The translations under genes were made by a program, and so were the position numbers. Source: an uncultured Bacteroidales bacterium (GTDB lineage: Bacteria; Bacteroidota; Bacteroidia; Bacteroidales; Paludibacteraceae). Taken from it: a stretch of 64,000 nucleotides of DNA. The notes under the pieces were generated by a model that did not search any database, had not been told where the DNA came from, and was given only the letters and a program-made list of their open reading frames with translations. Position 1 is the stretch's first letter. Each line of letters starts with the position of its first letter. The stretch lies in the NCBI GenBank assembly GCA_902765485.1, contig CACWZZ010000008.1:1-64000 (forward strand), written 5' to 3'. Positions 9,223 through 56,408 of this stretch are shown here, piece by piece.

Positions 9223-9257
9223 GTTGAAAGGTGAAAATTGAAAGGTGAAAGTTGAAA
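9223..9257 (+). repeat. heptamer array at the start of the lipoate ligase fusion gene
   Basis: Five 7-bp units: GTTGAAA, GGTGAAA, ATTGAAA, GGTGAAA, GTTGAAA. The predicted GTG start codon at 9245 lies inside the fourth unit, so the first codons of the downstream protein are repeat-encoded. Confidence 0.88.
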
Positions 9258-10519
9258 GGGTCATAGAAGGCTTGGCGCTGGAGGAGTATCTGGCGCTGGA
9301 AGCGGAGAGGGTGAAGACGGTTCAGACGCCGGTACTGTTCACCTGGATCGTGGAGCCGACGGTGATCTTCGGCAAGCACCAAGTGCGGGAACAAGAGGTG
9401 AATGACCGTTACTGCAAGGAACATTCTATCCGCGTTGTGCAACGGCAGAGCGGGGGAGGATGCGTCTATGCGGACCGGGGAAACCTGATGATCTCTTATA
9501 TCTCGCCTTCCACCCACTCGCAGGAGGTGTTTGAACTTTTCCTCCGGATGGTAGCGGGAGCGCTGAATAGGATGGGCTATCCTGCCGTAACAACGGCGCA
9601 TAATGATGTGCTGGTGGGTGACCGCAAAGTGGCAGGAACGGCTTGTTACACCACGCCCACAGGCACGGTGGTTCATGCCTCGATGCTGTATGAGGTGGAT
9701 ATGGAGGCTCTGGAGCGGGCAATCACCCCTTCGGCGGAGAAATTGGAGAAACATGCGGTGGCGTCGGTGCGGCAACGAGTGCGAAACCTGCGCGAGATAA
9801 AGGATTTAGGAACAATGACAGAGTTTAGAGAGCGAATAGAAAAAGAGATGGGGCGTCCCTCGCTTGTGATCTTTGATCTGGACGGGACGCTGCTGAACAC
9901 GATAGACGACTTGGGCTATGCCTGCAATCATGCCTTGGCGGCGTGTGGTTTTCCGACCCATGCCATCGAGGAATACCCGCGGTTGGTAGGTAATGGCGTG
10001 AACAAACTGATCGAACGTGCGCTGCCGGAAGGTCAGAAGAACGAAGAGACCGTCCTGCGCGTGCGTGCGCATTTCGTACCTTATTATAACGCGCATAACT
10101 GCGATTTCACGCGTCCGTATGACGGCATTCCTGAGCTGCTGGAGAGTTTGAAAGCCCGCGGCTGCATGCTGGCGGTTGCGAGCAATAAATACCAGGCGGC
10201 TACGGAGAAGATCGTATCGCATTTCTTCCCGGGAGTCTTTGATGTCGTCCTCGGCGAGCGGGAAGGAGTGCCCCGCAAACCCGATCCGCAGATCGTACGG
10301 GATATAGAGGCTAAGTTACAAAGGGACCAAGTACCAAGTACTTATTCTGTGCTCTATGTAGGCGACAGTCTGGTGGATCAAGCGACTGCAGCGAATGCCG
10401 GAGTGCCGTTCGTCGCCTGCTCATGGGGATTCGTGGCGCGAGAGAAGCTGGCAGAAGCCGGCTGCGAACGCATCATAGATAATCCGATGGAACTGCTATG
10501 TAAATGCGGAAATGTATAA
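9245..10519 (+). CDS. fusion: lipoate-protein ligase A-like domain + HAD phosphatase (Gph-like)
   Basis: This 424-residue frame joins two enzymes. Residues 1 to about 195 are a lipoate ligase/BPL-LplA-type domain (FGKHQVREQEVN, RRQ-like motif VQRQSGGGCVYADRGNLMIS, then DVLVGDRKVAGTACY). Residues about 209-424 are a haloacid dehalogenase phosphatase of the phosphoglycolate phosphatase group (VIFDLDGTLLNTIDDL, LAVASNK, RKPDP, LYVGDSLVDQ). The linker is about TMTEFRERIEKEMG. Near residues 361-366 the DQVPST segment repeats the insertion seen in pdxA. The GTG start at 9245 sits in a heptamer array. Fusion of these two activities is unusual; a sequencing frameshift joining neighbours is less likely because the linker reads cleanly. 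Confidence 0.82.
   Translation: MKVERVIEGLALEEYLALEAERVKTVQTPVLFTWIVEPTVIFGKHQVREQEVNDRYCKEHSIRVVQRQSGGGCVYADRGNLMISYISPSTHSQEVFELFLRMVAGALNRMGYPAVTTAHNDVLVGDRKVAGTACYTTPTGTVVHASMLYEVDMEALERAITPSAEKLEKHAVASVRQRVRNLREIKDLGTMTEFRERIEKEMGRPSLVIFDLDGTLLNTIDDLGYACNHALAACGFPTHAIEEYPRLVGNGVNKLIERALPEGQKNEETVLRVRAHFVPYYNAHNCDFTRPYDGIPELLESLKARGCMLAVASNKYQAATEKIVSHFFPGVFDVVLGEREGVPRKPDPQIVRDIEAKLQRDQVPSTYSVLYVGDSLVDQATAANAGVPFVACSWGFVAREKLAEAGCERIIDNPMELLCKCGNV
10325..10341 (+). repeat. 17-bp in-frame repeat inside the ligase/phosphatase fusion (encodes DQVPST)
   Basis: GACCAAGTACCAAGTAC, identical to 4157-4173 in pdxA and in the same frame. It falls between the HAD motifs KPDP and YVGDS, in what should be a surface loop. 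Confidence 0.85.
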
Positions 10520-10543: not shown

Positions 10544-11737
10544 ATGGAAATTTCTTTGCGGGCGCAGTCCATGCCGGAGAGCCCGATCCGAAAATTAGCA
10601 AAGTACGCCGATGCAGCCAAGCTGGCAGGGGTGCATGTGTATCACCTGAATATCGGTCAGCCGGATATCAAGACCCCTCCGCAAGCCATGGAGGCGGTGA
10701 AGAATTTTAACCAAGAGATCTTGGAGTACTCGCCTTCGCAGGGCTTGAAGTCGCTACGGACGAAGATGGTCAGTTACTACGCCGAGTACGGGATAGACCT
10801 TTCGCCGGACGAGATCATTATTACCGCCGGCGGTTCGGAGGCGATCATGTTTGCGTACATGTCTTGCCTCAATCCGGGCGACGAGATCATTGTGACCGAC
10901 CCTTCGTACGCCAACTATATGGCATTTGCGATCTCGGCAGGTGCTGTCGTCAAATCCGTCAAGACGGATATCAAGAACGGGTTCAAGTTGCCGCCGGTGG
11001 AGGAGTTTGAAAAGCAGATTACGCCGAAGACGCGCGCAATCCTGATCTGCAACCCCAATAACCCGACGGGCTATCTCTATACCAAGCAGGAGATGCGCCA
11101 GATCCGTGATCTGGTGAAGAAATACGACCTGTACCTGATCTCCGATGAGGTCTATCGCGAGTTCATCTATACCAAATCGCCGTATATCTCGGCTTGCCAT
11201 CTGGAGGGCATAGAGGAGAATGTGGTGCTGGTGGACAGCGTGTCGAAGCGTTATTCGGAGTGCGGCATTCGTATCGGTGCGCTCATTACCAAGAACAAAG
11301 CGGTGCGCGAGTCGGTGATGAAATTCTGCCAGGCGCGGTTGAGTCCTCCTCTGTTCGGTCAGGTGGTCGCAGAAGCGTCCCTCTCTACGCCGGAGGAGTA
11401 TATGCAGGAGGTCTATGACGAGTACCTCACCCGCCGTAATTTCCTGATCGATCAATTAAACCAGATCCCTGGTGTTTTTGCCCCTGCGCCGACCGGAGCA
11501 TTCTATGTGATGGTGGAGCTGCCGGTGGACGATGTGGAGAAATTCTGCAAGTGGTGTCTGACCGACTTCACTTACGAGGGCGCGACGATCATGATGGCTC
11601 CGGGGACAGGTTTCTACACCAACCCTGAGGACGGACGCCACCAAGTCCGCATGGCGTATGTGCTCAATAAGGAGGATCTGGCGAAAGCAATGATAGTATT
11701 ACGTAAAGCATTAGAAGCATATAATGAAAAGAATTAA
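10544..11737 (+). CDS. pyridoxal phosphate-dependent aminotransferase (aspartate-type, class I)
   Basis: This 397-residue protein is a fold-type I aminotransferase. It shows the substrate/cofactor motifs NIGQPDIKTPPQAMEAV, AGGSEAIMFA, CNPNNPTGYLY, SDEVYREF and the Schiff-base lysine in DSVSKRYSECGIRIG. The C-terminus APTGAFYVMVELP and GTGFY fit the family. It probably acts on aspartate or a related amino acid; exact specificity is not visible. It overlaps the FprA gene by 14 bp, suggesting co-translation. Confidence 0.87.
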   Translation: MEISLRAQSMPESPIRKLAKYADAAKLAGVHVYHLNIGQPDIKTPPQAMEAVKNFNQEILEYSPSQGLKSLRTKMVSYYAEYGIDLSPDEIIITAGGSEAIMFAYMSCLNPGDEIIVTDPSYANYMAFAISAGAVVKSVKTDIKNGFKLPPVEEFEKQITPKTRAILICNPNNPTGYLYTKQEMRQIRDLVKKYDLYLISDEVYREFIYTKSPYISACHLEGIEENVVLVDSVSKRYSECGIRIGALITKNKAVRESVMKFCQARLSPPLFGQVVAEASLSTPEEYMQEVYDEYLTRRNFLIDQLNQIPGVFAPAPTGAFYVMVELPVDDVEKFCKWCLTDFTYEGATIMMAPGTGFYTNPEDGRHQVRMAYVLNKEDLAKAMIVLRKALEAYNEKN

Positions 11738-12923
11738 GTATGTCGGCTGTGACGATGCCGAGTTGGATTTGTTTGAGAGCCAGTACGAGTTGCCGGAAGG
11801 CATGTGCTACAACAGCTATGTCGTGCTGGGAGAAGAGAAAGTAGCAGTGATGGACGCGATGGACGCGCGTTGCTGCGAGGAGTGGTTAAAGAAGGTAGAG
11901 GAGGCGCTTGCCGGACGCAAGCCGGACTACCTCGTTTGCCAGCACATGGAGCCGGATCATAGCGGCTCGATGGGTGCTTTTCTTGCCCAATACCCGGAGG
12001 CGACCGTTGTGTGCTCCAAGCAGGCAGTCGTAATGATGAACCAGTTTGGGATCGAAGCAACAAATGTGGAGGTAGTAGGCGAGGGTAGTACGCTTGATCT
12101 GGGCGGTCTGACGCTGCAGTTCATCGCTGCGCCTATGATCCACTGGCCCGAAGTAATCATGACCTATTGTCCGGAGGAGCAGGTGCTCTTCTCCGCAGAC
12201 GGTTTCGGTAAGTTCGGCGTTTATCATGCCGACGAGGACGACTGGGCTTGTGAGGCGCGTCGTTACTATTTCAATATTGTCGGCAAATACGGCATGCAGG
12301 TCTCCAACGTCCTCAAGAAACTAAATAATCTCCCCTCCTTTCAGGGAGGGGTCGGGGGTAGGCTTACTATTGCGCCGCTGCACGGACCGATGTTGGAGGG
12401 CGAGAAGAAAGACGAAGCGCTGCGTCTGTATTCGATCTGGAGCGCGTATGGCGTGGAGACCGATGGTGTGCTGGTGGCATACGCTTCGATCCATGGCAAC
12501 ACCCGTCGTGCGGCAGAGCAACTCGCCGAAATACTGCGCCAAAAAGCTGAAAGCCGAAAGCTGACGGCTGACGGCTCATTCAAAGTAGCAATCACCGATC
12601 TGAGCCGCGACGACATGGCAGAGGCGATTGAGGATGCGTTCCGTATGAACCGGCTCGTTCTTTGCTGCGCAACGTACGACGGAGATATTTTCCCGCCGAT
12701 GCACATGTTCCTGCATAAACTGCGTCTGAAAGGCTACCAGAACCGCCGTGTGGCATTGGTAGAGAATGGTTCGTGGGCACCGCAGGCGGTCAAAGTGATG
12801 AGAGAAATGCTCTCTACTTGCAAGAATGTAGAGATCGTCGAACCGACCGTCACGATCCGCGGTTCGCTCAAGCCGACGCAAGTAGCTGAACTCGAAGCAC
12901 TCGCAGATGCCCTCTTGGCATAA
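11724..12923 (+). CDS. fprA: A-type flavoprotein / flavodiiron protein
   Basis: This 399-residue protein combines an N-terminal metallo-beta-lactamase-like diiron domain (CQHMEPDHSGSMGA, APMIHWPEVIMTYCPEEQVLFSADGFG) with a C-terminal flavodoxin domain (VAYASIHGNTRRAAEQLAEIL). Such enzymes reduce O2 or NO in anaerobes. Two unusual in-frame segments are visible. Residues 203-214 (LPSFQGGVGGRL), just before the iron-ligand motif APLHGP, come from a G-rich palindromic element. Residues about 275-286 (ESRKLTADGSF region) come from five heptamers. Both positions are loops in relatives. The gene ends 7 bp before a strong terminator shared with convergent glyS. Confidence 0.9.
   Translation: MKRIKYVGCDDAELDLFESQYELPEGMCYNSYVVLGEEKVAVMDAMDARCCEEWLKKVEEALAGRKPDYLVCQHMEPDHSGSMGAFLAQYPEATVVCSKQAVVMMNQFGIEATNVEVVGEGSTLDLGGLTLQFIAAPMIHWPEVIMTYCPEEQVLFSADGFGKFGVYHADEDDWACEARRYYFNIVGKYGMQVSNVLKKLNNLPSFQGGVGGRLTIAPLHGPMLEGEKKDEALRLYSIWSAYGVETDGVLVAYASIHGNTRRAAEQLAEILRQKAESRKLTADGSFKVAITDLSRDDMAEAIEDAFRMNRLVLCCATYDGDIFPPMHMFLHKLRLKGYQNRRVALVENGSWAPQAVKVMREMLSTCKNVEIVEPTVTIRGSLKPTQVAELEALADALLA
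12330..12365 (+). repeat. 36-bp G-rich palindromic element in frame in fprA
   Basis: Twelve codons reading LPSFQGGVGGRL. The left half is C-rich (CTCCCCTCC) and the right half G-rich (GGGAGGGG, then CGGGGG), giving a hairpin. A diverged copy of equal length and in the same frame (LPPSGGGRGERL) occurs in glmS at 23255-23290. Confidence 0.85.
12545..12579 (+). repeat. AGCTGAC-type heptamer array in frame in fprA
   Basis: Five 7-bp units: AGCTGAA, AGCCGAA, AGCTGAC, GGCTGAC, GGCTCAT. The same unit family is found inside ugd at 56193-56227. Confidence 0.85.
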
Positions 12924-12929
12924 AAGAAA

Positions 12930-12958
12930 ATCCCGAACATCGCGTTCGGGATTTTTTT
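12930..12958. terminator. bidirectional intrinsic terminator between fprA and glyS
   Basis: Perfect 9-bp arms ATCCCGAAC / GTTCGGGAT with a 5-nt loop, followed by a T-run on the plus strand and preceded by an A-rich run that serves the minus strand. It lies between the convergent ends of fprA and glyS. Confidence 0.93.
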
Positions 12959-12970
12959 ATTCCATATTCG

Positions 12971-14545
12971 TTATTCCATGGTGTCCTCCATCGAGTCACC
13001 GACGATCTTGCGGTAAAGCTCTTTGGGGTCGGTGGCTTTGCGGATGATCTCATGCAGATCCTCGATCTTGACGCGGTCCTGAGCCATCGTATCGCGGTAG
13101 CGGACTGTGACGCAGCCGTCATTGAGTGTGTCGTGATCAACGGTGATGCAGAACGGCGTACCCACAGCGTCCTGGCGACGGTAACGCTTTCCGATCGAGT
13201 CTTTCTCGTCGTAAGCGACCTTGAAATCGAACTTCAGTTCGTTCATAATCTCACGCGCTTTCTCGGGCAGACCGTCTTTCTTCACGAGCGGCATGATACA
13301 AGCCTTGACAGGAGCGAGTACCGGCGGCAAATGGAGCACGACGCGTGTGTCGCCGCCTTCGAGCTGCTGCTCTTCGTAGGACGAACACATGACGGAGAGG
13401 AACATACGGTCCACACCGATCGAGGTCTCGATGACGTACGGGGTGTAGCTCTGGTTCAGCTCCGGATCGAAGTACTCGATCTTCTTTCCGCTGTATTTGG
13501 CGTGCTGCGAGAGGTCGAAGTTCGTGCGGCTGTGAATACCCTCCACCTCCTTGAAACCGAACGGCATGAGGAACTCTATGTCGGTTGCGGCATTGGCATA
13601 ATGCGCCAACTTTTCATGGTCGTGGAAACGGTATTTCTCGTCGCCCAGACCCAGCGCTTTGTGCCAGCGGAGGCGGAATTGTTTCCAGTGCTCAAACCAT
13701 TTGAGTTCCTCGCCCGGACGAACGAAGAACTGCATCTCCATCTGCTCGAACTCGCGCATACGGAAGACGAATTGACGCGCCACGATCTCGTTGCGGAAGG
13801 CTTTACCGATCTGCGCAATACCGAACGGCACTTTCATACGACCGGTCTTCTGGACGTTCAGGAAATTGACGAAGATACCTTGTGCGGTCTCCGGACGGAG
13901 ATAGATCTTCATTGCGCCATCGGCGGTCGAACCCATCTCGGTCTGGAACATGAGGTTGAACTGACGTACGTCGGTCCAGTTGCGAGTGCCGGAAATAGGA
14001 CAAACGATCTCTTCGTCGAGGATGATCTGCTTCAACTCCGCCAGGTCGTTCTCGTTCATCGCCTTAGAGTAACGTGCGTGCAGCGCCTCGCGTTTAGCGA
14101 TATGCTCTTTCACGCGCTCGTTGGTAGCCTTGAACATTTCCTCGTCGAAACTCTCGCCGAAACGCTTGCGGGCTTTCTCTATCTCTTTGGCGATCTTGTC
14201 GTCGTATTTGGCAATCTGGTCCTCGATCAGGACGTCCGCGCGGTAACGCTTCTTGGAGTCGCGATTATCGATCAGCGGATCATTGAACGCGTCCACGTGA
14301 CCCGAAGCTTTCCAGGTCGTCGGGTGCATGAAGATCGCGGCGTCAATACCCACGATATTCTCATGCAGCAGCGTCATGGAGTCCCACCAATAACGCTTGA
14401 TATTATTCTTCAACTCCACGCCGTTCTGACCATAGTCATACACGGCGCCCAGACCATCGTAGATCTCGCTGGACGGGAAAACGAAACCGTATTCCTTGCA
14501 ATGCGCTACGATTTTCTTAAATGTTTCTTCTTGTGTTGCAGCCAT
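12971..14545 (-). CDS. glyS: glycyl-tRNA synthetase (homodimeric type)
   Basis: This 524-residue protein is the single-chain, alpha2-type GlyRS. Features are the N-terminal KIVAHCKEYGFVFPSSEIYDGLGAVYDYG, class II motif 2 region (IAQIGKAFRNEI, then FRMREFEQMEMQFFV), motif 3 (ETSIGVDRMFLS) and the C-terminal anticodon-binding domain (RRQDAVGTPFCITVDHDTL). Length is normal. It has its own promoter on the minus strand (14621-14651), and an AT-rich, roughly octameric repeat occupies the 5' leader. Confidence 0.96.
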   Translation of the reverse strand: MAATQEETFKKIVAHCKEYGFVFPSSEIYDGLGAVYDYGQNGVELKNNIKRYWWDSMTLLHENIVGIDAAIFMHPTTWKASGHVDAFNDPLIDNRDSKKRYRADVLIEDQIAKYDDKIAKEIEKARKRFGESFDEEMFKATNERVKEHIAKREALHARYSKAMNENDLAELKQIILDEEIVCPISGTRNWTDVRQFNLMFQTEMGSTADGAMKIYLRPETAQGIFVNFLNVQKTGRMKVPFGIAQIGKAFRNEIVARQFVFRMREFEQMEMQFFVRPGEELKWFEHWKQFRLRWHKALGLGDEKYRFHDHEKLAHYANAATDIEFLMPFGFKEVEGIHSRTNFDLSQHAKYSGKKIEYFDPELNQSYTPYVIETSIGVDRMFLSVMCSSYEEQQLEGGDTRVVLHLPPVLAPVKACIMPLVKKDGLPEKAREIMNELKFDFKVAYDEKDSIGKRYRRQDAVGTPFCITVDHDTLNDGCVTVRYRDTMAQDRVKIEDLHEIIRKATDPKELYRKIVGDSMEDTME

Positions 14546-14547
14546 AA

Positions 14548-14600
14548 AGTTATTTACGATTTAGTCATTTACTATTTAATCATTTATTTGGTCATTTAGC
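14548..14600 (-). repeat. degenerate octamer array in the glyS leader
   Basis: On the minus strand the leader consists of imperfect units of about 8 bp built on TAAATGAC, such as GACTAAAT, GATTAAAT and AGTAAATG, running from just downstream of the promoter to the glyS start. The period drifts, so unit boundaries are uncertain. Confidence 0.6.
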
Positions 14601-14620
14601 AATATAACCAATTTTGACCG

Positions 14621-14651
14621 CAAAATTACTGCTTTTTTTTGAAATATGCAA
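14621..14651 (-). promoter_or_regulatory. Bacteroidota-type promoter for glyS
   Basis: On the minus strand TTG (plus-strand CAA 14649-14651) and TAATTTTG (plus-strand CAAAATTA 14621-14628) are separated by 20 nt. They lie about 75 bp upstream of the glyS start. Confidence 0.8.
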
Positions 14652-14708
14652 ATAAAAATGCATTAGTGGCACGTATTTTGTGCTTTAGTGATAAAAATTG
14701 AACGAATT

Positions 14709-16565
14709 ATGAAGAAAATTACCGCTTTGTTGTTCGCCGTAGTTCTGTGTTTCTGCACAGCGAACGCGTGTATGAAAAAGAGCCGTCAGCTGCCCAATGT
14801 AAGCCTTCAGCCGTTGACGGTTATTGTGATGGATACGACCCAGGCGCTGCTGGACGAAGCCGAAGTGAAGGTCGGCAAGACCACATTCAAGACCTCTTTT
14901 GACGGTCGCGTAGTGATCAAACCGGAGCTACTGAGTGGCGTGAAAACACTGGCTTTCAGCCGCAGGGGATTCAAGGATCTGAAGATCAAAGACTATACGG
15001 TTGAGACCGCGAAGGGCAATGTGCTGCTGGTCGTACTAACGCCGGAGGAAAAGAAAGCCGGACGCAAGGAGCACGATGAAGTTGTTGCTCTCGGTACGGC
15101 GCGAGGTAGTAGGAGCGATGTGATGTACATGAAATCGGCGGCGCCGTCCCTTGCCGAAATGGAATCAGCTATGGAGGCGGATGGGCTGATGGAAGATGTC
15201 CCTTTATCGGCGGTTGACGAGTCGAAACCTGCCATCGTTGGCTATGGCGCGTCGAACCATGCGGTTTCGGCAGGCAAACTGACCGCAGGCGAGGTGAATG
15301 ACTTCACCAAATGGTATTTCTGGCCCTCGGTGCTCGACGGCAGCCATAAGGAGTACATCGAGAATTGGAAAATCACTCCGCGCCACCGCTATACCGTGCA
15401 GGTGCGCACTAAGCATGGGTTTCCGATTGCTTCGCGGGCGGTGAGCCTGTTGGACAATTCCGGCAATACCTTGTTTCAAGCCGTGACGGACAATACAGGA
15501 AAAGCGGAACTATGGTTTCAACTGGTCGGCAATAACCTCTGCGGTAAGCATGCGGACTTCTTCCTCCTCGTGGATGGTGAGAAACAGAAAGCCAAAGACT
15601 GGAGCGAAGGAATCAATACGTTTATCCTCGACGAGCCCTGCGAAGTGAGCGACGCGGTGGATGTGATGTTCGTCTTCGACGCCACCGGTTCTATGGGCGA
15701 CGAGTTGCACTATCTGCAGGCGGAGATGAAGGATGTGATCTCTCGTGCTACCGAGGCAACAGGCGGTCTGGCGATCCGTACGGGCGCTGTCGTCTATCGC
15801 GACCATAACGACGAGTATCTGACTCGTATCTCTCGGCTGACGAACAACATAAAAGAGACCCAGTCTTTCATTGACAAACAGCAGGCGAACGGTGGTGGCG
15901 ACTATCCGGAGGCAGTGCCGGAAGCGCTGATGGCGGCGATGAACAGTGCCGGATGGGATCCTCTCGCACGTGCGCGCATCGCGTTCCTTATATTAGATGC
16001 GCCCTGCCACCAGGATTCAGCCACGATTGCTCTCTTGCACGACCAGATCCTCAATGCCGCGGCATTAGGTGTCCGCATCGTGCCGGTCGTTTGCAGCGGT
16101 CTGGGCGAGAGTGGGGAGCTGCTCCTGCGCTCCATGGCATTGGCTACTAACGGCACTTCGTTCTTCCTCACCGACGACTCGGGAATCGGGCACTCGCACC
16201 TCAAACCGACCACCGATTCGCTCAAAGTGGAGCACCTCAACGACATGCTCGTCCGGACGATTGTCGAGTTCTCCTCTATGCCGAGTTGCGATCCCTCTGA
16301 GTTCGCCGAGGATGTGTCGGAAGAAATAGAACAGTTCCTGCCGAACCCCTTCAAAGCCGAAGACATAGAGCGCGATCCGTCGATCCCGCACGGCGAAGGT
16401 GTGCACTATCTGATGGACGTCAGCGGCAAACTAATCACGATCTTCGAAGGCGAACTATCCGACCTCCAGGCACAAATCGTCCGCATGGGACTGCCGATCG
16501 GAGTCTATTTCGTCAAGACTTTCTCCGAAGGAGAATGGCACACCGAGAAGGTGTTGATTCGTTAA
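14709..16565 (+). CDS. secreted von Willebrand factor A domain protein with type IX-like C-terminal domain
   Basis: I start at ATG 14709 (MKKITALLFAVVLCFCTANA, signal peptide), giving 618 residues. A carboxypeptidase-regulatory-like domain is at about 30-110. A second beta-rich segment lies near 220-290. A VWA domain spans about 315-505 with the metal-site motif FVFDATGSMGDE. The C-terminus GVYFVKTFSEGEWHTEKVLIR resembles a type A sorting domain of the type IX secretion system, so surface attachment is likely. A terminator follows 26 bp after the stop. I do not recognise a named family for the whole protein. Confidence 0.82.
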   Translation: MKKITALLFAVVLCFCTANACMKKSRQLPNVSLQPLTVIVMDTTQALLDEAEVKVGKTTFKTSFDGRVVIKPELLSGVKTLAFSRRGFKDLKIKDYTVETAKGNVLLVVLTPEEKKAGRKEHDEVVALGTARGSRSDVMYMKSAAPSLAEMESAMEADGLMEDVPLSAVDESKPAIVGYGASNHAVSAGKLTAGEVNDFTKWYFWPSVLDGSHKEYIENWKITPRHRYTVQVRTKHGFPIASRAVSLLDNSGNTLFQAVTDNTGKAELWFQLVGNNLCGKHADFFLLVDGEKQKAKDWSEGINTFILDEPCEVSDAVDVMFVFDATGSMGDELHYLQAEMKDVISRATEATGGLAIRTGAVVYRDHNDEYLTRISRLTNNIKETQSFIDKQQANGGGDYPEAVPEALMAAMNSAGWDPLARARIAFLILDAPCHQDSATIALLHDQILNAAALGVRIVPVVCSGLGESGELLLRSMALATNGTSFFLTDDSGIGHSHLKPTTDSLKVEHLNDMLVRTIVEFSSMPSCDPSEFAEDVSEEIEQFLPNPFKAEDIERDPSIPHGEGVHYLMDVSGKLITIFEGELSDLQAQIVRMGLPIGVYFVKTFSEGEWHTEKVLIR

Positions 16566-16590
16566 ACTGTTAAATCGGAAAACGGTTAAA

Positions 16591-16618
16591 AAGTGGGCTT
16601 CGGCTCACTTTTTTTTAT
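16591..16618 (+). terminator. intrinsic terminator after the VWA gene
   Basis: Stem AAGTGGGC / GCTCACTT (one G-T pair) closed by a TTCG tetraloop and followed by a T-rich run. Confidence 0.92.
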
Positions 16619-16634
16619 TTTATTGCTGAAAAAC

Positions 16635-16665
16635 TTGCATATTTCAAATATTTGTTGTACTTTTG
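16635..16665 (+). promoter_or_regulatory. Bacteroidota-type promoter for glnN and downstream genes
   Basis: TTG at 16635-16637 and TACTTTTG at 16658-16665, 20 nt apart. It is 53 bp upstream of the glnN start and probably drives the glnN-dapF-dapL-pyrG series. Confidence 0.8.
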
Positions 16666-16717
16666 TCGTCGATTTTTGAATTTAATCGGATTAAAAACTA
16701 AATTTAGTGTTAAAAGT

Positions 16718-18904
16718 ATGGCGAATGTTCGTTTTGATGCGTTGAAAATTGCAAAAGAGCATACATCGGTGGATGTTACGGCTCCGAAAGGAAAAGTGAA
16801 AGAGTATTTCGCTTCCGATGTGTTTACGCGGGAGCGGATGAAGGAGTATATATCGGAGGAAGTGCTGGACCTGTTGTTCGACGATGTGGATAGTGGTCGC
16901 ACGATCCATCGCGATATAGCGGGTAGTGTGGCGATCGGCATGCGCAAATGGGCGATGGACCACGGTGCTACGCATTTTACCCATTGGTTTCAGCCCCTCA
17001 CCGGCGGCACGGCGGAGAAACACGATGCCTTTTTTACCATCGAGGACGGTGCGTTGATCGAGGAGTTCAGCGGCAATGCGTTGTACCAGCAGGAGCCGGA
17101 TGCTTCGTCTTTCCCTTCCGGAGGCATCCGCAATACGTTTGAAGCCCGCGGCTACTCGGCATGGGACCCTTCGTCGCCTGTTTTTCTCATCGGCGACACC
17201 CTTTGTATTCCGACGGTTTTTGTGGCATACACCGGCGAAGCGCTGGATTACAAAACGCCGCTGATCCGTTCTACCGCCTCGCTCTGCCATGCGGCGCGGG
17301 AGGTGTGCGGCTATTTCGACAAGCAGGTCAAGCATGTCCATGCGAACTTGGGCTGGGAGCAGGAGTATTTCCTGGTGGACGAAGCGCTCTATAACGCCCG
17401 TCCGGATCTGATGCTTACCGGGCGGACGCTCATGGGACATAACAGCGCCAAGAACCAGCAGCTGGAGGACCATTATTTCGGTGCTATTCCGGCGCGCGTG
17501 CTGGCTTTCATGCAGGAGCTGGAGTACGAAGCCCTGCGGGCGGGAATACCTGTTCGGACGCGCCATAATGAGGTGGCTCCGAACCAGTTCGAGATGGCGC
17601 CTGTTTTTGAGAATGTCAACCTTGCCAACGACCATAACTTGCTCGTCATGTCTATCATGGAGCGTGTGGCGCAGAAACACCATTTCCGCGTACTCCTGCA
17701 TGAGAAACCCTATGCGGGCGTGAACGGCAGCGGCAAGCATTGCAACTGGTCGCTCTCCACCAACACCGGCGTGAATCTCTTGGCGCCCGGTAAGAACCCC
17801 TATCAGAACCTCCAGTTCATCACTTTCTTGGTCAACGTCCTTATGGCGGTATATAAATACAACGGTCTGCTCAAAGCGTCCATCGCTTCGGCTACCAACG
17901 AACACCGTTTGGGTGCCAACGAAGCGCCGCCGGCGATCATCTCCGTCTTCTTGGGCAAGCAGATCAGCGAAGTGCTCGATAAGTTGGAGCATGCCAAAGC
18001 GGACGAAGCAATCATCATCAATGCCAAGAAAGAGATGAAACTCGGCGTGGCGAATATACCTGAGATCCTACTGGACAACACCGATCGCAACCGCACATCG
18101 CCTTTTGCTTTCACCGGCAACCGCTTTGAGTTCCGAGCGGTCGGCTCGTCCGCTAACTGCGGCGCGGCTATGCTGGCGCTCAATGCTGCCGTGGCGGAGC
18201 AACTGATGCTTTTCAAACAGGAAGTGGACGCGCGTATCGAATCCGGCGAACCCAAAGAAAAAGCGCTCTTCGAACTGATCCAACGCTATATTATCGCCTG
18301 CAAAGCGATCCGTTTTGACGGAAACGGCTATTCGGACGAATGGAAAGCCGAAGCGGCTCAGCGTGGGCTGAATTGCGAGACCTCGGTGCCGGTGATCATT
18401 GACCAATACCTGACGCCGGAGACGATTAAGATGTTTGATTTCACCGGCGTCCTCAGCGAAGCGGAATTGCATAGCCGTTGCGAGGTCAAATGGGAGACAT
18501 ACACCAAGAAGATCCAGATCGAGAGCCGTGTGCTGGGTGATCTGGTTCTCAACCATGTCTTGCCTGCCGCCAAACGCTACCAGACTATGCTGCTGCAAAA
18601 TGTGCTGGCGGTCAAGCAGGTCTTCTCTGCCGACGAGACGGCGTCGCTCAACGAACGCGACTATGACATCATTCGTCGTATTGAGTCGCATTCCGGCGCT
18701 ATACTGGAAGGGGTGGATAAAATGACCGAAGCGCGTCATAAAGCGAACCGGCAGCCCGATGAGCGTTCCAAAGCGGTGGCGTACCACGACACGATCCTCC
18801 CGCTCATGGCGGAGATACGAACCCATGCCGACGAGCTGGAAATGATAGTGGACGACGAGATGTGGACGCTCCCAAAATACAGAGAATTGCTTTTTATCCA
18901 TTAA
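16718..18904 (+). CDS. glnN: glutamine synthetase type III
   Basis: GSIII makes glutamine from glutamate, ammonia and ATP. The start at ATG 16718 (MANVRFDALKIAKEHTS) gives 728 residues, the usual GSIII length. Diagnostic stretches are AMDHGATHFTHWFQPLTGGTAEKHDAF, LGWEQEYFLVDEALY, RHNEVAPNQFEMAPVFE, LHEKPYAGVNGSGKHCNWS and NRTSPFAFTGNRFEFRAVGSS. An upstream 22-codon extension lies within the leader and is rejected. The gene is only 5 bp from dapF. Its product feeds the glutamine-dependent enzymes PyrG and GlmS encoded downstream. Confidence 0.95.
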   Translation: MANVRFDALKIAKEHTSVDVTAPKGKVKEYFASDVFTRERMKEYISEEVLDLLFDDVDSGRTIHRDIAGSVAIGMRKWAMDHGATHFTHWFQPLTGGTAEKHDAFFTIEDGALIEEFSGNALYQQEPDASSFPSGGIRNTFEARGYSAWDPSSPVFLIGDTLCIPTVFVAYTGEALDYKTPLIRSTASLCHAAREVCGYFDKQVKHVHANLGWEQEYFLVDEALYNARPDLMLTGRTLMGHNSAKNQQLEDHYFGAIPARVLAFMQELEYEALRAGIPVRTRHNEVAPNQFEMAPVFENVNLANDHNLLVMSIMERVAQKHHFRVLLHEKPYAGVNGSGKHCNWSLSTNTGVNLLAPGKNPYQNLQFITFLVNVLMAVYKYNGLLKASIASATNEHRLGANEAPPAIISVFLGKQISEVLDKLEHAKADEAIIINAKKEMKLGVANIPEILLDNTDRNRTSPFAFTGNRFEFRAVGSSANCGAAMLALNAAVAEQLMLFKQEVDARIESGEPKEKALFELIQRYIIACKAIRFDGNGYSDEWKAEAAQRGLNCETSVPVIIDQYLTPETIKMFDFTGVLSEAELHSRCEVKWETYTKKIQIESRVLGDLVLNHVLPAAKRYQTMLLQNVLAVKQVFSADETASLNERDYDIIRRIESHSGAILEGVDKMTEARHKANRQPDERSKAVAYHDTILPLMAEIRTHADELEMIVDDEMWTLPKYRELLFIH

Positions 18905-18909
18905 TAGCG

Positions 18910-19734
18910 ATGGCAGCTCTTCCTTTTATCAAAATGCATGGTCTTGGAAACGACTACATCTTTATAGATTGTTTCTCTAAGACTACAGTTGCGCTAATAG
19001 CACGGCTTGACATTCCCGCTTTAGCGAGGCGTGTCTCTGATCGCCATTTTGGCATTGGGGCGGATGGTTTGGTGCTTATTCTTCCGACCAAAGAGGCGGA
19101 TGCGGAGATGCGCATATTCAATGCGGATGGCTCGGAAGCAGAGATGTGTGGCAATGCTATTCGCTGCGTAGGAAAATACCTTTATGAAAGCGGGTTATGT
19201 GCCGATACCGGAATCTCTGTCAGCACATTAGCAGGTATCCGAAAGTTAAACTTACTTCTCACGGACGGCGTCGTGTCCCGGATCACAGTGAACATGGGGA
19301 CGCCAAAGATGGCTGCGGATTCTCTTTCTTTGAAGGAACGCGATACATTAGGATTCATATCTGTAAACATAGGAAATCCGCACGCTGTGTTTTTCCGTAA
19401 CTGGCTCATCTCTGATGCGGAAATGGCTGATATGGGCGCACGCATCAGTACGCATCCCCATTTTCCTCATGGTACGAATGTCGAGTTTGTCCATGTTCGC
19501 AATATGCATGAACTGGATGTCCGCGTATGGGAGCGGGGGACGGGAGAGACGCTGGCTTGTGGCACGGGGGCTTGCGCGACGGCTGTGGCGGCTTTCTGGA
19601 TGGAAGAGACAGAGCACGAGGTGACCGTGCATCTCAAAGGTGGAAATTTGTTTATTCAATATGATCCTATTGATAAAATAGTGTATATGACCGGACCTGC
19701 TACAGAAGTGTTCAGGGGGCAAGTGAGCGTCTAA
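18910..19734 (+). CDS. dapF: diaminopimelate epimerase
   Basis: DapF interconverts LL- and meso-diaminopimelate for lysine and peptidoglycan. The start at ATG 18910 (MAALPFIKMHGLGNDYIFID) gives 274 residues, normal for DapF. Both catalytic cysteines are present: MCGNAIRCVGKYL and LACGTGACATAVAA. From here through pyrG the base composition is visibly less GC-rich than in the flanking glnN and glmS. It is 12 bp before dapL. Confidence 0.95.
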   Translation: MAALPFIKMHGLGNDYIFIDCFSKTTVALIARLDIPALARRVSDRHFGIGADGLVLILPTKEADAEMRIFNADGSEAEMCGNAIRCVGKYLYESGLCADTGISVSTLAGIRKLNLLLTDGVVSRITVNMGTPKMAADSLSLKERDTLGFISVNIGNPHAVFFRNWLISDAEMADMGARISTHPHFPHGTNVEFVHVRNMHELDVRVWERGTGETLACGTGACATAVAAFWMEETEHEVTVHLKGGNLFIQYDPIDKIVYMTGPATEVFRGQVSV

Positions 19735-19746
19735 ATCCATTCGCGT

Positions 19747-20916
19747 ATGAAAATCAATTCACATTATACTGATTTGTCCACTCATTATTTGTTTCACGAC
19801 ATCGATTTGAGGGTGAATGAGTATTTGGCACATCATCCGGGTGAGCATTTGTTGCGGATGGGGGTGGGGGATGTAACTCGCCCTTTGCCGCCTGTCATTG
19901 TGGAGGCTATGTGCTCTGCTGCTGAAGAACTGGAGCATGAGGATACGTTTCGAGGTTATGGACCTGAGAACGGATATGAGTGGTTGCAGCAATGCATCAT
20001 TGACCATGATTTTAAGCCGCGAGGTATAGAATTTCAACCGGATGAAATCTTTATCGGAGAAGGAGCAGGTAGCGACCTGGGAAATCTCAGCGAACTATTC
20101 GCCTCGGACAATACGGTTGCTATTCCGGATCCGACTTACCCTGCGTATGTCGATGCCAATATGATGGCTGGGAGGAAAATCGTCCTTTTGCCATGCCTTA
20201 AAGAGAATAATTTTGTTCCGGAACGGCCGGAGGAGAAGGTGGATATCATCTATTTGTGTTTTCCCAATAACCCCACCGGCGCTGTTCTGACGCATGAGCA
20301 ACTTCGGCTTTGGGTGGATTACGCTCGTAACAATCATAGTATCATTATTTTTGATGCGGCGTACGAGGCTTATATTTCTTCGCCGGACACCCCTCATAGT
20401 ATCTATGAGATCGAAGGAGCCAAAGAGGTGGCTGTCGAGGTGCATAGTTTCAGCAAAAGCGCGGGATTCACATCCGTCAGATGCGGCTATACCGTGGTTC
20501 CCTACGATACGGGGCTACAAGCCATGTGGATGCGGCGTCAATGTACAAAATACAACGGTACGGCATATGTCTCCCAGCGTGCGGCACAAGCCACTTATAC
20601 GCCGGAAGGACGTGCTGCTGTCAATGCGAACGTGGCATATTATATGGAAACGGCGCAAATGATTAGGCAGGGATTGCAGGAAGCCGGATTGCAGGTCTTC
20701 GGCGGCATCAACGCTCCCTATATTTGGTGTGCTACTCCGAATGGCATGGGCTCATGGGATTTTTTTGACTTATTGCTGAACCGATGTAAAACAATATGTA
20801 CTCCGGGGGTGGGGTTTGGACCTTCTGGAGAAGGATATGTGCGCTTCTCTGCCTTCTCGCATAGAGAAGATGTCCTGAGAGCACTCGAACGCATTCATAC
20901 GGATTTGTCATTATGA
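19747..20916 (+). CDS. dapL: LL-diaminopimelate aminotransferase
   Basis: DapL converts tetrahydrodipicolinate directly to LL-diaminopimelate. The 389-residue protein matches the family at LLRMGVGDVTRPLPPVIVEAM, DTFRGYGPENGYEWL, LCFPNNPTGAVL, FDAAYEAYI, the PLP lysine in HSFSKSAGFTSVRCGYTVVP, RQCTKYNGTAYVSQRAA and GVGFGPSGEGYVR. It is somewhat shorter than the usual 405-410 residues, mainly in internal loops. The position between dapF and pyrG supports the call. It overlaps pyrG by 4 bp (ATGA). Confidence 0.92.
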   Translation: MKINSHYTDLSTHYLFHDIDLRVNEYLAHHPGEHLLRMGVGDVTRPLPPVIVEAMCSAAEELEHEDTFRGYGPENGYEWLQQCIIDHDFKPRGIEFQPDEIFIGEGAGSDLGNLSELFASDNTVAIPDPTYPAYVDANMMAGRKIVLLPCLKENNFVPERPEEKVDIIYLCFPNNPTGAVLTHEQLRLWVDYARNNHSIIIFDAAYEAYISSPDTPHSIYEIEGAKEVAVEVHSFSKSAGFTSVRCGYTVVPYDTGLQAMWMRRQCTKYNGTAYVSQRAAQATYTPEGRAAVNANVAYYMETAQMIRQGLQEAGLQVFGGINAPYIWCATPNGMGSWDFFDLLLNRCKTICTPGVGFGPSGEGYVRFSAFSHREDVLRALERIHTDLSL

Positions 20917-22523
20917 GCAAATGTCATTATATTTTTGTTACAGGCGGTGTCGCTTCCTCGTTAGGTAAAGGTATTGTGGCGGCTTCGTTGGGTAAGTTAC
21001 TGCAAGCACGCGGGCTGCGGGTAACGAATCAAAAACTGGATCCGTATATCAACGTTGATCCCGGAACGCTTAATCCCTATGAACACGGTGAGTGTTATGT
21101 TACCGCGGACGGGCATGAGGCTGACCTTGATTTGGGGCATTATGAGCGATTCTTGAATGTTGAGACACACAAGGTTAACAACCTGACTGCCGGAAGTATC
21201 TATCATTCTGTTATTGAGAAAGAGCGTCGGGGGGATTTCCTAGGAAAAACCGTTCAGGTAATCCCGCATATTACCGATGAGATTAAGCATAATGTAATTG
21301 CTTTGGGAGAAAGTGGGCAGTTTGACTTTGTGATTACAGAAATTGGAGGAACGGTCGGAGACATCGAGTCGTTGCCATTCATTGAAGCTATGCGACAAAT
21401 GAAGTGGGAATTGGGGAGAGATTGTTTGTCTGTTCACCTCACGTATGTTCCTTTTCTGGCGGCGGCTCATGAGTTGAAAACTAAACCGACACAACACTCT
21501 GTAAAAGCATTGCAGCAAAGTGGCATCCAACCCGATATTATCGTCCTTCGCACGGAACATTCGATCCCTGAATCCATTAAAGCCAAGGTGGGATTATTTT
21601 GTAATGTTAACCCGAAGGCGGTAGTGCAGTGTGAGGATGCGGATTCGATCTATGAGGTGCCCGGAAACTTGCATCGTGAAAATTTGGATGAAATAATTCT
21701 GGAACATATCGGAATGGATACGCGTACGCTCCAGCCGATGGATATGAAGGAATGGAATACATTCCTACAATTACGCAGGCAGGCAACTCAGCAGGTACGC
21801 ATTGCGATAGTCGGAAAATATGTACAGTTGCACGATGCGTACATGTCTATCCGCGAGAGTCTTTCCCATGCGTGCACGTATAACCACTGTAAGTTGGAAC
21901 TGACTGAAATATTGTCGGATGACCTTACACAGCAAAATGTAGCGAAATGCTTGGACGGATTTCAAGGTATCGTCATTGCGCCGGGGTTTGGAGGAAGAGG
22001 AATAGAAGGCAAATTAGCAGCTATCCGGTACGCACGCGAAAACAACATCCCCTGCTTTGGAATATGCTTGGGTATGCAATGCATGGCAATTGAGTTCGCC
22101 CGTAATATTTTAGGCTTCGCCGATGCTAATAGTACTGAGTTTGACCCGAATACAACGCATAATGTGGTGGATATGATGGAGGAGCAGAAACGACTTGTTA
22201 ATAAGGGAGCAACCATGAGATTAGGTGCCTATGAATGTCATTTGCGTCCGGGGACCAAAGTGAGGGCTATTTACGGCAAAGAACAAATCCGTGAGCGTCA
22301 TAGACACCGCTATGAGTTTAATAACGCCTATAGGGAGTTATTCGAACAATTTAATATGCTATGCGTGGGGAAAAACCAAGAGGCTGATTTGGTGGAAATA
22401 ATAGAGTTAAAAAATCATCCTTGGTTCATAGGAGTGCAGTACCATCCTGAATTTTCAGGGACTGTGCTTAAACCTCATCCATTATTCATGGACTTTATAC
22501 ATGTTGCAAAAAATCTTAAATGA
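20913..22523 (+). CDS. pyrG: CTP synthase
   Basis: PyrG aminates UTP to CTP using glutamine. The 536-residue protein has the amidoligase start FVTGGVASSLGKGIVAASLG, the ITEIGGTVGDIESLPFIEA motif and a C-terminal class I glutamine amidotransferase domain with the catalytic cysteine in CFGICLGMQCMAIEFARN and a terminal VQYHPEF histidine. Length is normal. Its translation is coupled to dapL by a 4-bp overlap. The third positions are less GC-rich than in glmS, as in dapF and dapL. Confidence 0.97.
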   Translation: MSKCHYIFVTGGVASSLGKGIVAASLGKLLQARGLRVTNQKLDPYINVDPGTLNPYEHGECYVTADGHEADLDLGHYERFLNVETHKVNNLTAGSIYHSVIEKERRGDFLGKTVQVIPHITDEIKHNVIALGESGQFDFVITEIGGTVGDIESLPFIEAMRQMKWELGRDCLSVHLTYVPFLAAAHELKTKPTQHSVKALQQSGIQPDIIVLRTEHSIPESIKAKVGLFCNVNPKAVVQCEDADSIYEVPGNLHRENLDEIILEHIGMDTRTLQPMDMKEWNTFLQLRRQATQQVRIAIVGKYVQLHDAYMSIRESLSHACTYNHCKLELTEILSDDLTQQNVAKCLDGFQGIVIAPGFGGRGIEGKLAAIRYARENNIPCFGICLGMQCMAIEFARNILGFADANSTEFDPNTTHNVVDMMEEQKRLVNKGATMRLGAYECHLRPGTKVRAIYGKEQIRERHRHRYEFNNAYRELFEQFNMLCVGKNQEADLVEIIELKNHPWFIGVQYHPEFSGTVLKPHPLFMDFIHVAKNLK

Positions 22524-22537
22524 TAAAATACTAAATT

Positions 22538-22569
22538 TCAAATCTTCAAATCATCAAATCATCAAATCC
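22538..22569 (+). repeat. octamer array immediately upstream of glmS
   Basis: Four 8-bp units: TCAAATCT, TCAAATCA, TCAAATCA, TCAAATCC. The last unit ends 1 bp before the glmS ATG and occupies the place of a ribosome-binding region. Confidence 0.9.
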
Positions 22570-22570
22570 A

Positions 22571-24466
22571 ATGTGCGGAATTGTAGGATATATAGGTCGC
22601 CGTGCGGCGTACCCGATTTTGATCAAAGGTCTCCATCGTCTGGAGTACCGCGGTTATGATAGCGCCGGCGTGGCGCTCATCAATGAGCAAGGCAAACTGA
22701 ATGTCTATAAGGCGAAAGGTAAAGTATCGCAACTGGAAGCGTACGCGGCGGACAAGGACACCGGCGGAACAATAGGTATTGCGCACACGCGTTGGGCGAC
22801 GCATGGCGAACCCAATGCGGTCAATGCGCACCCCCATTACTCCGAGTCCGAGCGGCTGGCGATCATTCATAACGGAATTATCGAGAACTACGCGGTCCTC
22901 AAAGCCGGTCTGCAGAAGGAGGGCTATACATTCAAGTCCGAGACCGACACAGAGGTGCTCGTCCAGCTCATTGAATACACCCAGCTCAACAAGCATGTGG
23001 ACCTCAAGACTGCCGTCCAACTTGCGCTCCAGCAGGTCATCGGAGCCTATGCAATCGCTATTCTTGACAAAGACCATCCGGACACGCTCATTGCTGCCCG
23101 CAAAGGTTCGCCCCTCGTGGTGGGAATAGGTGAAGGGGAGTATTTCTTGGCTTCCGATGCTACGCCGATCGTCGAATACACCGACCAAGTGATCTATATT
23201 GACGACGAAGAAGTGGTTAGCATCTGTATGCCTGCAACCTCCGGCTCTGCCGGGCTCCCTCCCTCCGGGGGAGGGCGGGGGGAGAGGCTCCTCAATATTA
23301 CTACCATCAACAACGTTGAAAAGACCCCTGAGATCAAGCGTCTGGAGCTCTCGTTGAGCCAGCTGGAAAAAGGCGGCTACCCGCATTTCATGCTCAAGGA
23401 GATCTTCGAGCAGCCGCGCACGCTGACCGACTCCATGCGCGGACGCGTCAACGTCCGACAGGACAATATCGCCCTCTCCGGATTCATCGATAATAAAGAC
23501 CGTTTCCTGAACGCCAAGCGAATTATCATCACCGCTTGCGGCACTTCGTGGCACGCCGGTTTGATCGCTATGTACGCCATCGAAGAGTTCGCGCAAATAC
23601 CTGTCGAGGTTGAGTATTCGTCTGAGTTCCGCTATCGCAAGCCGGTCATCAACAAGGACGATGTGGTCATTGCCATCTCGCAGTCCGGCGAGACAGCAGA
23701 CACCTTAGCGGCGATCCAACTCGCTAAGTCCAAAGGAGCGTTCATCTTCTCTATCTGTAATGTCATCGGGGCGTCTATCCCGCGTCTGAGCGACAGCGGC
23801 TGTTACACCCATGTGGGACCGGAGATCGGCGTCGCCTCCACCAAAGCCTTTACGGCACAAGTGGTAGCGCTTACGATGCTCGCCCTTTGTATCGGAAAAG
23901 AGAAAGGAACGATCTCCGAAGACCAATATCTCCGGATCGTCCGCGAACTGGGTCAGATCCCCGACAAGATCGAGCGCGTGCTGTCCCAGAACAAACGTAT
24001 TGCGGATTTCGCCAAGACTTTCACGTACGCCCAGAATTTCATTTATCTCGGACGCGGGTATAATTACCCGGTTGCATTGGAGGGCGCGCTCAAACTGAAG
24101 GAGATCTCGTATATTCATGCCGAGGGCTATCCCGCGGCGGAGATGAAGCACGGACCGATTGCCCTCATCTCGCAGGAAATGCCGGTGGTAGTCGTTGCGC
24201 CGCATTGTGGCACCTACGAAAAAGTGGTCTCGAACATCCAGGAAATCAAAGCCCGGAAGGGTAGAGTGATTGCCGTGGTGACGGAAGGCGACGAAGTGGT
24301 CTCCAAGATTGCGGATTACACCATTGAGATCCCTGAAACGGAGGAGTGCCTCACACCGCTGCTGACGGTCATTCCGCTCCAGCTCATGGCGTACCACATT
24401 GCCGTCGTCAAAGGCTGCGATGTGGATCAGCCGCGAAACCTCGCCAAATCAGTCACTGTTGAATAA
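22571..24466 (+). CDS. glmS: glutamine-fructose-6-phosphate aminotransferase (isomerising)
   Basis: GlmS makes glucosamine 6-phosphate for cell-wall sugars. The 631-residue protein starts MCGIVGYIG with the N-terminal nucleophile cysteine. It shows HRLEYRGYDSAGVAL, HTRWATHGEPN and HNGIIENY in the amidotransferase half. Two SIS domains follow (TACGTSWHAGLIAMYA, SQSGETADTL, then HAEGYPAAEMKHGPIALI). Residues 229-240 (LPPSGGGRGERL), at the loop before the linker that joins the two halves, derive from a 36-bp G-rich element shared with fprA. An octamer array precedes the start. Confidence 0.96.
   Translation: MCGIVGYIGRRAAYPILIKGLHRLEYRGYDSAGVALINEQGKLNVYKAKGKVSQLEAYAADKDTGGTIGIAHTRWATHGEPNAVNAHPHYSESERLAIIHNGIIENYAVLKAGLQKEGYTFKSETDTEVLVQLIEYTQLNKHVDLKTAVQLALQQVIGAYAIAILDKDHPDTLIAARKGSPLVVGIGEGEYFLASDATPIVEYTDQVIYIDDEEVVSICMPATSGSAGLPPSGGGRGERLLNITTINNVEKTPEIKRLELSLSQLEKGGYPHFMLKEIFEQPRTLTDSMRGRVNVRQDNIALSGFIDNKDRFLNAKRIIITACGTSWHAGLIAMYAIEEFAQIPVEVEYSSEFRYRKPVINKDDVVIAISQSGETADTLAAIQLAKSKGAFIFSICNVIGASIPRLSDSGCYTHVGPEIGVASTKAFTAQVVALTMLALCIGKEKGTISEDQYLRIVRELGQIPDKIERVLSQNKRIADFAKTFTYAQNFIYLGRGYNYPVALEGALKLKEISYIHAEGYPAAEMKHGPIALISQEMPVVVVAPHCGTYEKVVSNIQEIKARKGRVIAVVTEGDEVVSKIADYTIEIPETEECLTPLLTVIPLQLMAYHIAVVKGCDVDQPRNLAKSVTVE
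23255..23290 (+). repeat. 36-bp G-rich palindromic element in frame in glmS
   Basis: Twelve codons reading LPPSGGGRGERL, C-rich at the left and G-rich at the right, so able to fold into a hairpin. It is the same length, frame and layout as 12330-12365 in fprA (LPSFQGGVGGRL). Confidence 0.85.
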
Positions 24467-24491
24467 AAATACTGCTTTTTGCCTTCCACGA

Positions 24492-24535
24492 GTGGGTGAT
24501 TAGTGGGTGATTAGTGGGTGATTAGTGGGTTGTTA
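24492..24535 (+). repeat. 11-bp tandem array after glmS
   Basis: Three exact copies of GTGGGTGATTA and a fourth variant GTGGGTTGTTA. The unit resembles the GTGCGTGATAA array at 57504. Confidence 0.93.
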
Positions 24536-30140: not shown

Positions 30141-30180
30141 TAGATATGCATAAATCTGCCTAAATCTGCCTAAATCTGCC
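30141..30180 (+). repeat. 10-bp tandem array in the spacer
   Basis: Three exact copies of TAAATCTGCC (30151-30180) preceded by a degenerate unit TAGATATGCA. It ends 28 bp before the next promoter. Confidence 0.9.
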
Positions 30181-55083: not shown

Positions 55084-55085
55084 CT

Positions 55086-56401: not shown

Positions 56402-56408
56402 TTTAACT

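Follow-up and report, generated by a model that had tools for sequence, protein, structure and literature searches.

In-frame copies of a dispersed triplex-type element in fprA and glmS of a Bacteroidales bacterium, probable solo ends of a DUF559 mobile unit

The stretch of DNA analysed here, hereafter the window, comprises 64,000 nucleotides from an uncultured Bacteroidales bacterium of the Paludibacteraceae (assembly GCA_902765485.1, contig CACWZZ010000008.1, positions 1 to 64,000 of the forward strand). Two of its genes, fprA and glmS, each harbor in frame a short element consisting of a C-rich Y arm, a loop, a G-rich purine (R) arm and a 3' tail, predicted to fold as a triplex. E-values in the feature list refer to R1, a covariance model that was built from 20 copies, mostly of one subfamily, after a pattern search, and that undercounts elements with other stems.

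11724..12923, + strand: fprA (A-type flavoprotein) open reading frame (ORF), Pfam ODP/Lactamase_B, with one triplex-type element and a different second insert
12330..12365, + strand: triplex-type element in fprA, CTCCCCTCCTTTCAGGGAGGGGTCGGGGGTAGGCTT, peptide LPSFQGGVGGRL (R1 E 1.7e-4); Y arm 12332-12338, loop 12339-12344, R arm 12345-12351, tail 12355-12361
12543..12578, + strand: second fprA insert, KAESRKLTADGS, a short repeat of AGCTGAC-like units, in frame
22571..24466, + strand: glmS ORF (Pfam match), with one triplex-type element in the interdomain linker
23255..23290, + strand: triplex-type element in glmS, DNA beginning CTCCCTCCCTCCGGGGGAGGGCGGGGGGAGAGGCT, peptide LPPSGGGRGERL (R1 E 5.9e-7); Y arm 23257-23263, loop 23264-23268, R arm 23269-23275, tail 23280-23286

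Both elements lie where the initial annotation had placed them, C-rich and then G-rich, in frame and in phase 0 of the element. Its description of a 36-bp in-frame element holds, but the implied clean gain of 12 codons does not: in DNA-level alignments the gain is eight codons in fprA, measured against its nearest relative, and 17 in glmS, measured against the bare-linker form, and in both genes the adjoining codons are also altered. A second small palindrome, CCGGCTCTGCCGG (window 23241-23253), lies just 5' of the glmS element within the same 17-codon gain. Of the two predicted folds, only that of fprA beats those of shuffled sequences (z -2.6; glmS z 0.12). The common frame is a coincidence, because the 49 strong intragenic copies of the element in this genome are spread over all six of them (14/10/7/7/6/5, chi-square p=0.24). 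In each of the two elements the tail mirrors the R arm at six of seven positions, with one mismatch. The second fprA insert corresponds to residues 274-285, where the nearest species (90% identical) carries a triplex-type element, APSLEGRGGER.

The two inserts belong to a large set. The initial annotation had staked its proposal on further copies elsewhere in the genome, and about 100 were found: when 150 of 418 first-look candidates from the organism's own assembly (G000, 82.8% complete) were scored with R1, 145 rows were obtained, of which 100 full-length ones were kept at E<=0.051 (best E ~1e-12) and 45 dropped (18 that were full-length but above this E, and 27 that matched the hairpin alone, on the strand opposite to a copy already listed). 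A perfect hairpin of at least six pairs with a loop of 3-6 nt occurs in 86 of the 100 copies, and sorting by stem gives the arms GGGAGGG, GAGAGGG, GGGAGAG, GGGGAGG, GGGGGAG, GGGGGGA and others. Copies with the hairpin, a mirrored tail and a GGTT-like end are found by the model both within and between genes; three element-bearing loci gave no Rfam match at the gathering threshold. Among 61 relatives (R1 at E<=0.001, at most 109 candidates scored per genome) counts are patchy, with 92 in G034 and 79 in the own genome, followed by 64, 56, 54 and 44, none in several genomes of the genus that are close to complete (G004, G011 and G028) and 27 in G038, which belongs to another family. The element occurs across Bacteroidota: R1 matches at E<=1e-5 were obtained in at least 43 of 395 genomes of the phylum, a minimum since no more than 16 candidates were scored in each.

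A further feature of the element is its 3' tail, which repeats the purine arm in reverse order, with G remaining G and A becoming A or T. R1 contains no tail pairs, so that this mirror is not imposed by the model. It was evaluated on the 77 of 100 copies that have a perfect 7-bp purine hairpin, picked without regard to the tail (70 unique, 39 of them asymmetric), the best of three spacers being granted equally to real and shuffled tails. The mirror is perfect in 29 of the 39 unique asymmetric copies, against a mean of 8.2 and a maximum of 16 in 2000 tail shuffles, and a direct-repeat code fits one of the 39; by stem, perfect mirrors are seen in 10/11 copies with GAGAGGG, 9/11 with GGGGAGG, 4/4 with GGGAGAG, 4/4 with GGGGGAG and 1/1 with GGGGGGA. 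In relatives (117 loci, 418 kb) 13 of 38 mirrors are perfect (shuffles: mean 4.8, maximum 10), and in other orders and classes (29 loci, all recruited by R1) 25 of 58 (mean 6.8, maximum 15), with no fit to the direct code in either set; the latter loci include the further stem/tail pairs GAGAGGA/AGGTGAG, GAAAGGG/GGGATAG and GGGAAGA/AGATGGG. Eighty glmS loci of other Bacteroidota, not chosen with R1, gave 0/14 perfect mirrors and one element matching at 6/7 positions (L261). Watson-Crick pairing of the tail with the Y arm was ruled out by reasoning, its polarity being wrong, and the mirror fits better than a plain palindrome as the conserved structure.

In an antiparallel DNA triplex of the purine motif, the third arm is a mirrored purine strand that forms G·GC, A·AT and T·AT triplets. 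The same triplet code is given in excerpts of Holder 2015 (PMC4666352), and by its sequence the tail marks the element as a predicted class II intrastrand triplex of DNA, of the kind known in E. coli as BoxC/PIT/TM, whose folding in vitro is described in the same excerpts. Like the latter (also TMECO), the present element is G/C-rich and dispersed, occurs also as inverted pairs and consists of a C-rich arm, a loop, a G-rich arm, a short second loop and a second G-rich arm; it has the two marks of the class, namely a hairpin with a short loop and an antiparallel second purine arm with mirror triplets. It differs from TMECO proper, which has 9-nt stems of a single consensus (CCCTCNCCC), in that its own stems are mostly 7-8 nt and of several other sequences with the mirror kept, and is therefore filed under the wider BoxC/PIT/TM class only. 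Moreover, TMECO is always intergenic in MG1655 according to the same excerpts (PMC4666352), whereas 60 of the 100 copies counted here are genic. The text of Holder 2015 (PMC4666352) contains no match for bacteroid, nuclease or endonuclease; its database of 5246 genomes and plasmids, as described in part of the paper, may list Bacteroidota copies, and Flexibacter is named there for A/T triplexes. Salmonella, according to the same paper, does not have TMECO.

The count of copies inside and outside genes for which the initial annotation had called shows that residence within coding sequence is common. By a hexamer coding score, for which 178 long ORFs (from the window and fetched loci, host ORFs included) served as the training set, 60 of the 100 copies are classed as crossed by a reading frame that has coding signal before and after the element (49 at >=20 bits). 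These copies occur in both orientations and in all six phases. The corresponding figures are 75.5% for 1500 random window positions and 0.3% for 1000 flank-shuffled copies, so that copies are only mildly depleted from genes (60/100 versus 75.5%, binomial p 7e-4). The 60 copies sit in 54 ORFs, 50 of which have Pfam matches. Pfam sequence flanks 36 copies on both sides, 24 lying within one stretch and 12 between stretches (two of the 12 depend on ranges inferred from a stretch count), and 20 on one side only, leaving four without Pfam sequence. Hosts named by Pfam include GlmS, FprA, MurF-Alr, MurG, MurD, HflX (three copies), RsmH, DAHP synthase-chorismate mutase (two), DapB, AroA, RnpA, IspD, TatC, MnmA, PcrB and LpxD. 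In alignments to solved structures, the element peptide of MnmA and IspD falls at a gap (a short one in IspD), and DapB aligns in pieces with its insert outside them. Under a rougher rule used for other genomes (frame open for 60 codons on each side), an ORF encloses 8 of 27 elements in relatives' loci and 15 of 43 in those of other orders; 16 of these ORFs were tested, and each has a Pfam match. No function of the inserts at the protein level is expected.

Orthologue comparisons indicate that individual copies are narrowly distributed. Among the 61 genomes searched fprA was matched in 39 and glmS in 49, and 30 loci per gene were aligned; the organism's own copies in fprA, glmS and murG each occur in one of the 30. 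In hflX, the copy at site 115 is common to the own genome and G018 (2/30; L211 has a different G/C-rich insert there), and an inverted pair at 335/352 is found in 3/30 loci (own, G021 and G002). The copy at DAHP site 1 is present in 3 of 23 aligned loci (own, G018 and G034; 30 fetched), and DAHP site 2, judged by eye, holds triplex-like elements of differing subtypes in own, G018, G034 and G021. Most sister species thus do not have the own copy in any of the five genes examined (fprA, glmS, murG, hflX and DAHP). Nor is the peptide carried by orthologues of other genera, where its presence, with unrelated codons, would have spoken against the initial annotation: an alignment of 76 further GlmS proteins, taken from the 80 best among the loci listed (four without an ORF), shows a bare 19-residue linker in 66 and an 18-residue one in 6. 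At this glmS linker the named rumen species RUG225 has a different subtype, read in a different phase. In the chorismate mutase loop, four sister species have triplex-like elements of different stem types at one place (L371, L372 and L373 versus L370), as the result of either repeated insertion or a concerted change of all three arms. Many sister species hold a different in-frame tandem repeat, with units of about 6-8 bases, in the murG loop (L231-L260), and short tandem repeats are likewise seen in the glmS linker (L061-L090) and the DAHP loops (L370-L392); these repeats mark such loops as tolerant sites, or sinks, for several kinds of repeat.

Rickettsia palindromic elements are palindromic, sit in frame in unrelated proteins and are missing from orthologues; we know of none with a mirrored third arm. 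The resemblance proposed in the initial annotation is well founded, as the present element also has many copies, is palindromic, is in frame in unrelated genes (60 copies in 54 ORFs) and is missing from most orthologues examined. The traits of the Rickettsia elements are also given in excerpts of PMC3733652. These elements belong to another phylum and, as far as is known, differ in structure from the element studied here.

A candidate enzyme is suggested by the neighbors of such elements in other genomes. PF04480 (DUF559), a family likened to the YcjD and Vsr-like nucleases, has matches in 24 of the 61 relatives' genomes, and at two loci of other orders Pfam places DUF559 between two elements inside LeuRS and MetH. 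Among the 30 DUF559 loci returned, an element lies within 200 bp of the gene in 12 of the 20 strong ones (E<=1.4e-27), on both sides in five, with tails outward in all five, and in 0/10 of the weaker ones (E>=9.6e-20); elsewhere in the same 20 loci there are seven further copies in 45.6 kb. DUF559 is in frame inside LeuRS (L353, L404 and L408), MetH (L361) and DegT-type aminotransferases (L410, L411 and L415), the hosts of L404, L408, L410, L411 and L415 having been identified by reading the sequence.

The association extends to plasmids. Twelve DUF559 plasmid loci were picked by eye from 41 records with their flanks still unseen (Photobacterium, Deinococcus x3, Azospirillum, Sinorhizobium x2, Picosynechococcus x2, Synechocystis and Pseudanabaena x2), and 10 of them have an element within 250 bp when one hairpin and one tail mismatch are allowed. 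Away from DUF559, the 40-kb flanks on six of the plasmids contain 14 copies in 236.5 kb (9 of 263 windows); beside it, the same plasmids have 15 copies in 5.25 kb, a density inflated by the preselection of all six as having an element nearby, and the unselected comparison of 10/12 loci with 9/263 windows gives a Fisher p of 1e-11. DUF559 genes therefore adjoin triplex-type elements in four phyla, Bacteroidota, Pseudomonadota, Deinococcota and Cyanobacteriota. E. coli ycjD, present in 3365 of 5426 E. coli genomes, also has an element within 250 bp; a supposed second TM at its 3' end is a hairpin without a third arm, and the scan lists one element. Comparison of L430 with L449 shows an RND efflux operon next to fabI in an E. 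coli strain that lacks ycjD, and the two arrangements look allelic.

As for the enzyme itself, three test DUF559 proteins all match NCBIfam PRK09767 below its cut-off, one of them also weakly matching vsr. A YcjD profile detected Vsr, according to part of PMC1189080, and the DUF559 protein of Caulobacter is VsrA, a putative mismatch-repair enzyme, according to part of PMC12907096. In the portions of the literature examined DUF559/YcjD figures as a predicted nuclease and not as the partner of a repeat, and among open-licence full texts the literature naming DUF559 or ycjD has no overlap with that naming 'intrastrand triplex'.

Taken together, and judging from sequence comparison, the inserts are copies of one dispersed triplex-type element that resides in frame in dozens of genes and probably represents the solo end of a DUF559 mobile unit; the reason to regard it as a loose end is that relatives and other phyla have elements of the same kind beside DUF559 genes. 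In some other bacteria the predicted nuclease is encoded between two elements and would move with them. Once DNA is opened, a single strand would fold as a triplex, which DUF559 would recognise and nick or cut, and single ends, inverted pairs or the whole unit would then be copied to new places; genic copies would persist only if in frame, stop-free and in a tolerant loop, adding roughly 11-13 residues. This would be a partnership resembling that of repetitive extragenic palindromes (REPs) and their REP-associated tyrosine transposases (RAYTs), with a different enzyme. The initial annotation had missed the class II intrastrand-triplex kind of the element, its spread across Bacteroidota and its likely partner gene, DUF559.

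Several observations weigh against this interpretation. On the side of the fold, 14 of the 100 own copies have no perfect hairpin, GGAGGGG, the stem type of fprA, shows a perfect mirror in 1/5 copies and three single-copy stems in 0/3, and both window copies fall short of one triplet in seven; one mismatch is tolerated in the motif search of Holder 2015, as described in part of the text (PMC4666352), and according to the same part no stable triplex was found in E. coli cells. Copies and subfamilies are related by descent, so that the shuffles overstate significance and independence, and the number of distinct stems preserving the mirror is the better argument. On the side of the enzyme, neither DUF559 nor Y1_Tnp has a match in the own genome (82.8% complete), G034, with the most copies (97% complete), has a partial DUF559 match only, and G011 and G019 have DUF559 without any R1 match, so that copy number does not track DUF559; by eye, its presence does not predict copy number within the genus. 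Furthermore, in 8 of the 20 strong loci no element lies within 200 bp of DUF559, and neither a clean empty site nor a target-site duplication was found, the flanking codons being too divergent between the species compared. An E. coli strain without ycjD, considered as an empty site, has another operon (efflux) in that place (one strain). For these reasons the enzyme, while the likely mobiliser, is put forward as a candidate only. Searches for DUF559 relics in the fetched own loci gave short weak matches only, several of them to the protein start encoded by the element; a longer match of the window to L415 lies, by our reasoning, in the aminotransferase part of the latter and not in DUF559.

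The most serious alternative, a real rival that we nevertheless consider unlikely, is that DUF559 is a passenger or a site-specific homing enzyme that invades existing triplex-type elements, with something else spreading the solo ones. It would account for the genomes with many copies in which no intact DUF559 was found (G000, G034, G022 and G036) and for the recurrence of the gene at the same LeuRS site in L404 and L408 and at the same aminotransferase site in L410, L411 and L415; against it, the outward-facing pair closely encloses DUF559 in 5/5 two-sided cases, like ends rather than one split target, and the plasmids have few copies elsewhere, several of which match those flanking DUF559. 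Distinctly less probable is that the element acts at the RNA level, its hairpin terminating transcription or affecting mRNA stability, and that genic copies are accidents of its spread: 40 of the 100 copies are not classed as read through and REPs are often transcribed (part of PMC3733652), but the 60 genic copies lie in both orientations and all six phases, the three loci are silent in Rfam, and such a hairpin has no use for a mirrored tail. We give still less credit to a G-quadruplex as the conserved structure, for which four runs of at least three G are available in 28 of 100 copies; the other 72 do not have them, 33 of the 59 among these with a perfect hairpin have the full mirror, and the mirroring of A as A or T has no explanation in a quadruplex.

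It is highly improbable that the elements are REPs of a RAYT (Y1_Tnp) system such as the GTAG-REPs. The latter are comparable in size, palindromic structure, dispersal and the presence of some genic copies, and the GTAG/CGTC REPs also form dimers and have a nuclease gene nearby, all according to part of PMC3733652; Y1_Tnp matches occur in 34 of the 61 relatives. These REPs, however, combine a hairpin plus GTAG with a Y1 transposase, as opposed to a predicted triplex with a predicted PD-(D/E)XK (Vsr-like) DUF559 nuclease. PF01797 (Y1_Tnp) has no match in the own genome, and an element was found at 0/18 Y1_Tnp loci (the better 18 of 30), compared with 12/20 strong DUF559 loci (Fisher p 5e-5); these control loci come mostly from copy-poor genomes, the remainder of the 20 DUF559 loci being a fairer control. 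A RAYT as mobiliser accordingly receives no support. Finally, the notion that nothing was inserted and that slippage added low-complexity DNA to tolerant loops, with convergent likeness to an element, deserves hardly any credence and is largely refuted by the likeness among copies, since one model finds hairpin, mirrored tail and GGTT-like end within and between genes with E down to 1e-12, even if the same loops of sister species hold short tandem repeats (glmS, murG and DAHP).

The window contains other repeats. A ACCAAGTACCAAGTAC repeat at 10312-10341 lies inside an ORF (9245-10519) that by eye resembles a lipoate ligase plus HAD, has a second copy at 4144-4173, and is perhaps another in-frame short repeat; short tandem arrays with units of 7, 9, 10 and 11 bases are found at 24491-24534, 57503-57546, 57657-57764, 55068-55120, 56391-56471 and 30141-30180.

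In a broader perspective, we see even chances that the probable DUF559-linked element belongs to a new class of mobile element, in which a PD-(D/E)XK, Vsr-like nuclease with triplex ends, distributed over four phyla, would explain BoxC/PIT/TM, and solo ends, inverted pairs or the whole nuclease would insert in frame in LeuRS, MetH, DegT-type aminotransferases, GlmS and FprA, making protein loops from transposon ends. The orphan repeat BoxC/PIT/TM, described in the 1990s, would thereby be tied to a candidate enzyme, for which E. coli K-12, as a carrier of ycjD, offers a convenient laboratory host. Earlier support for the triplex form, in excerpts of PMC4666352, came from abundance and test-tube folding, to which base-triplet covariation adds comparative evidence for the evolutionary importance of a three-stranded form. 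With in-frame elements present in housekeeping enzymes at this scale, the idea that protein loops originate from mobile DNA becomes open to test.

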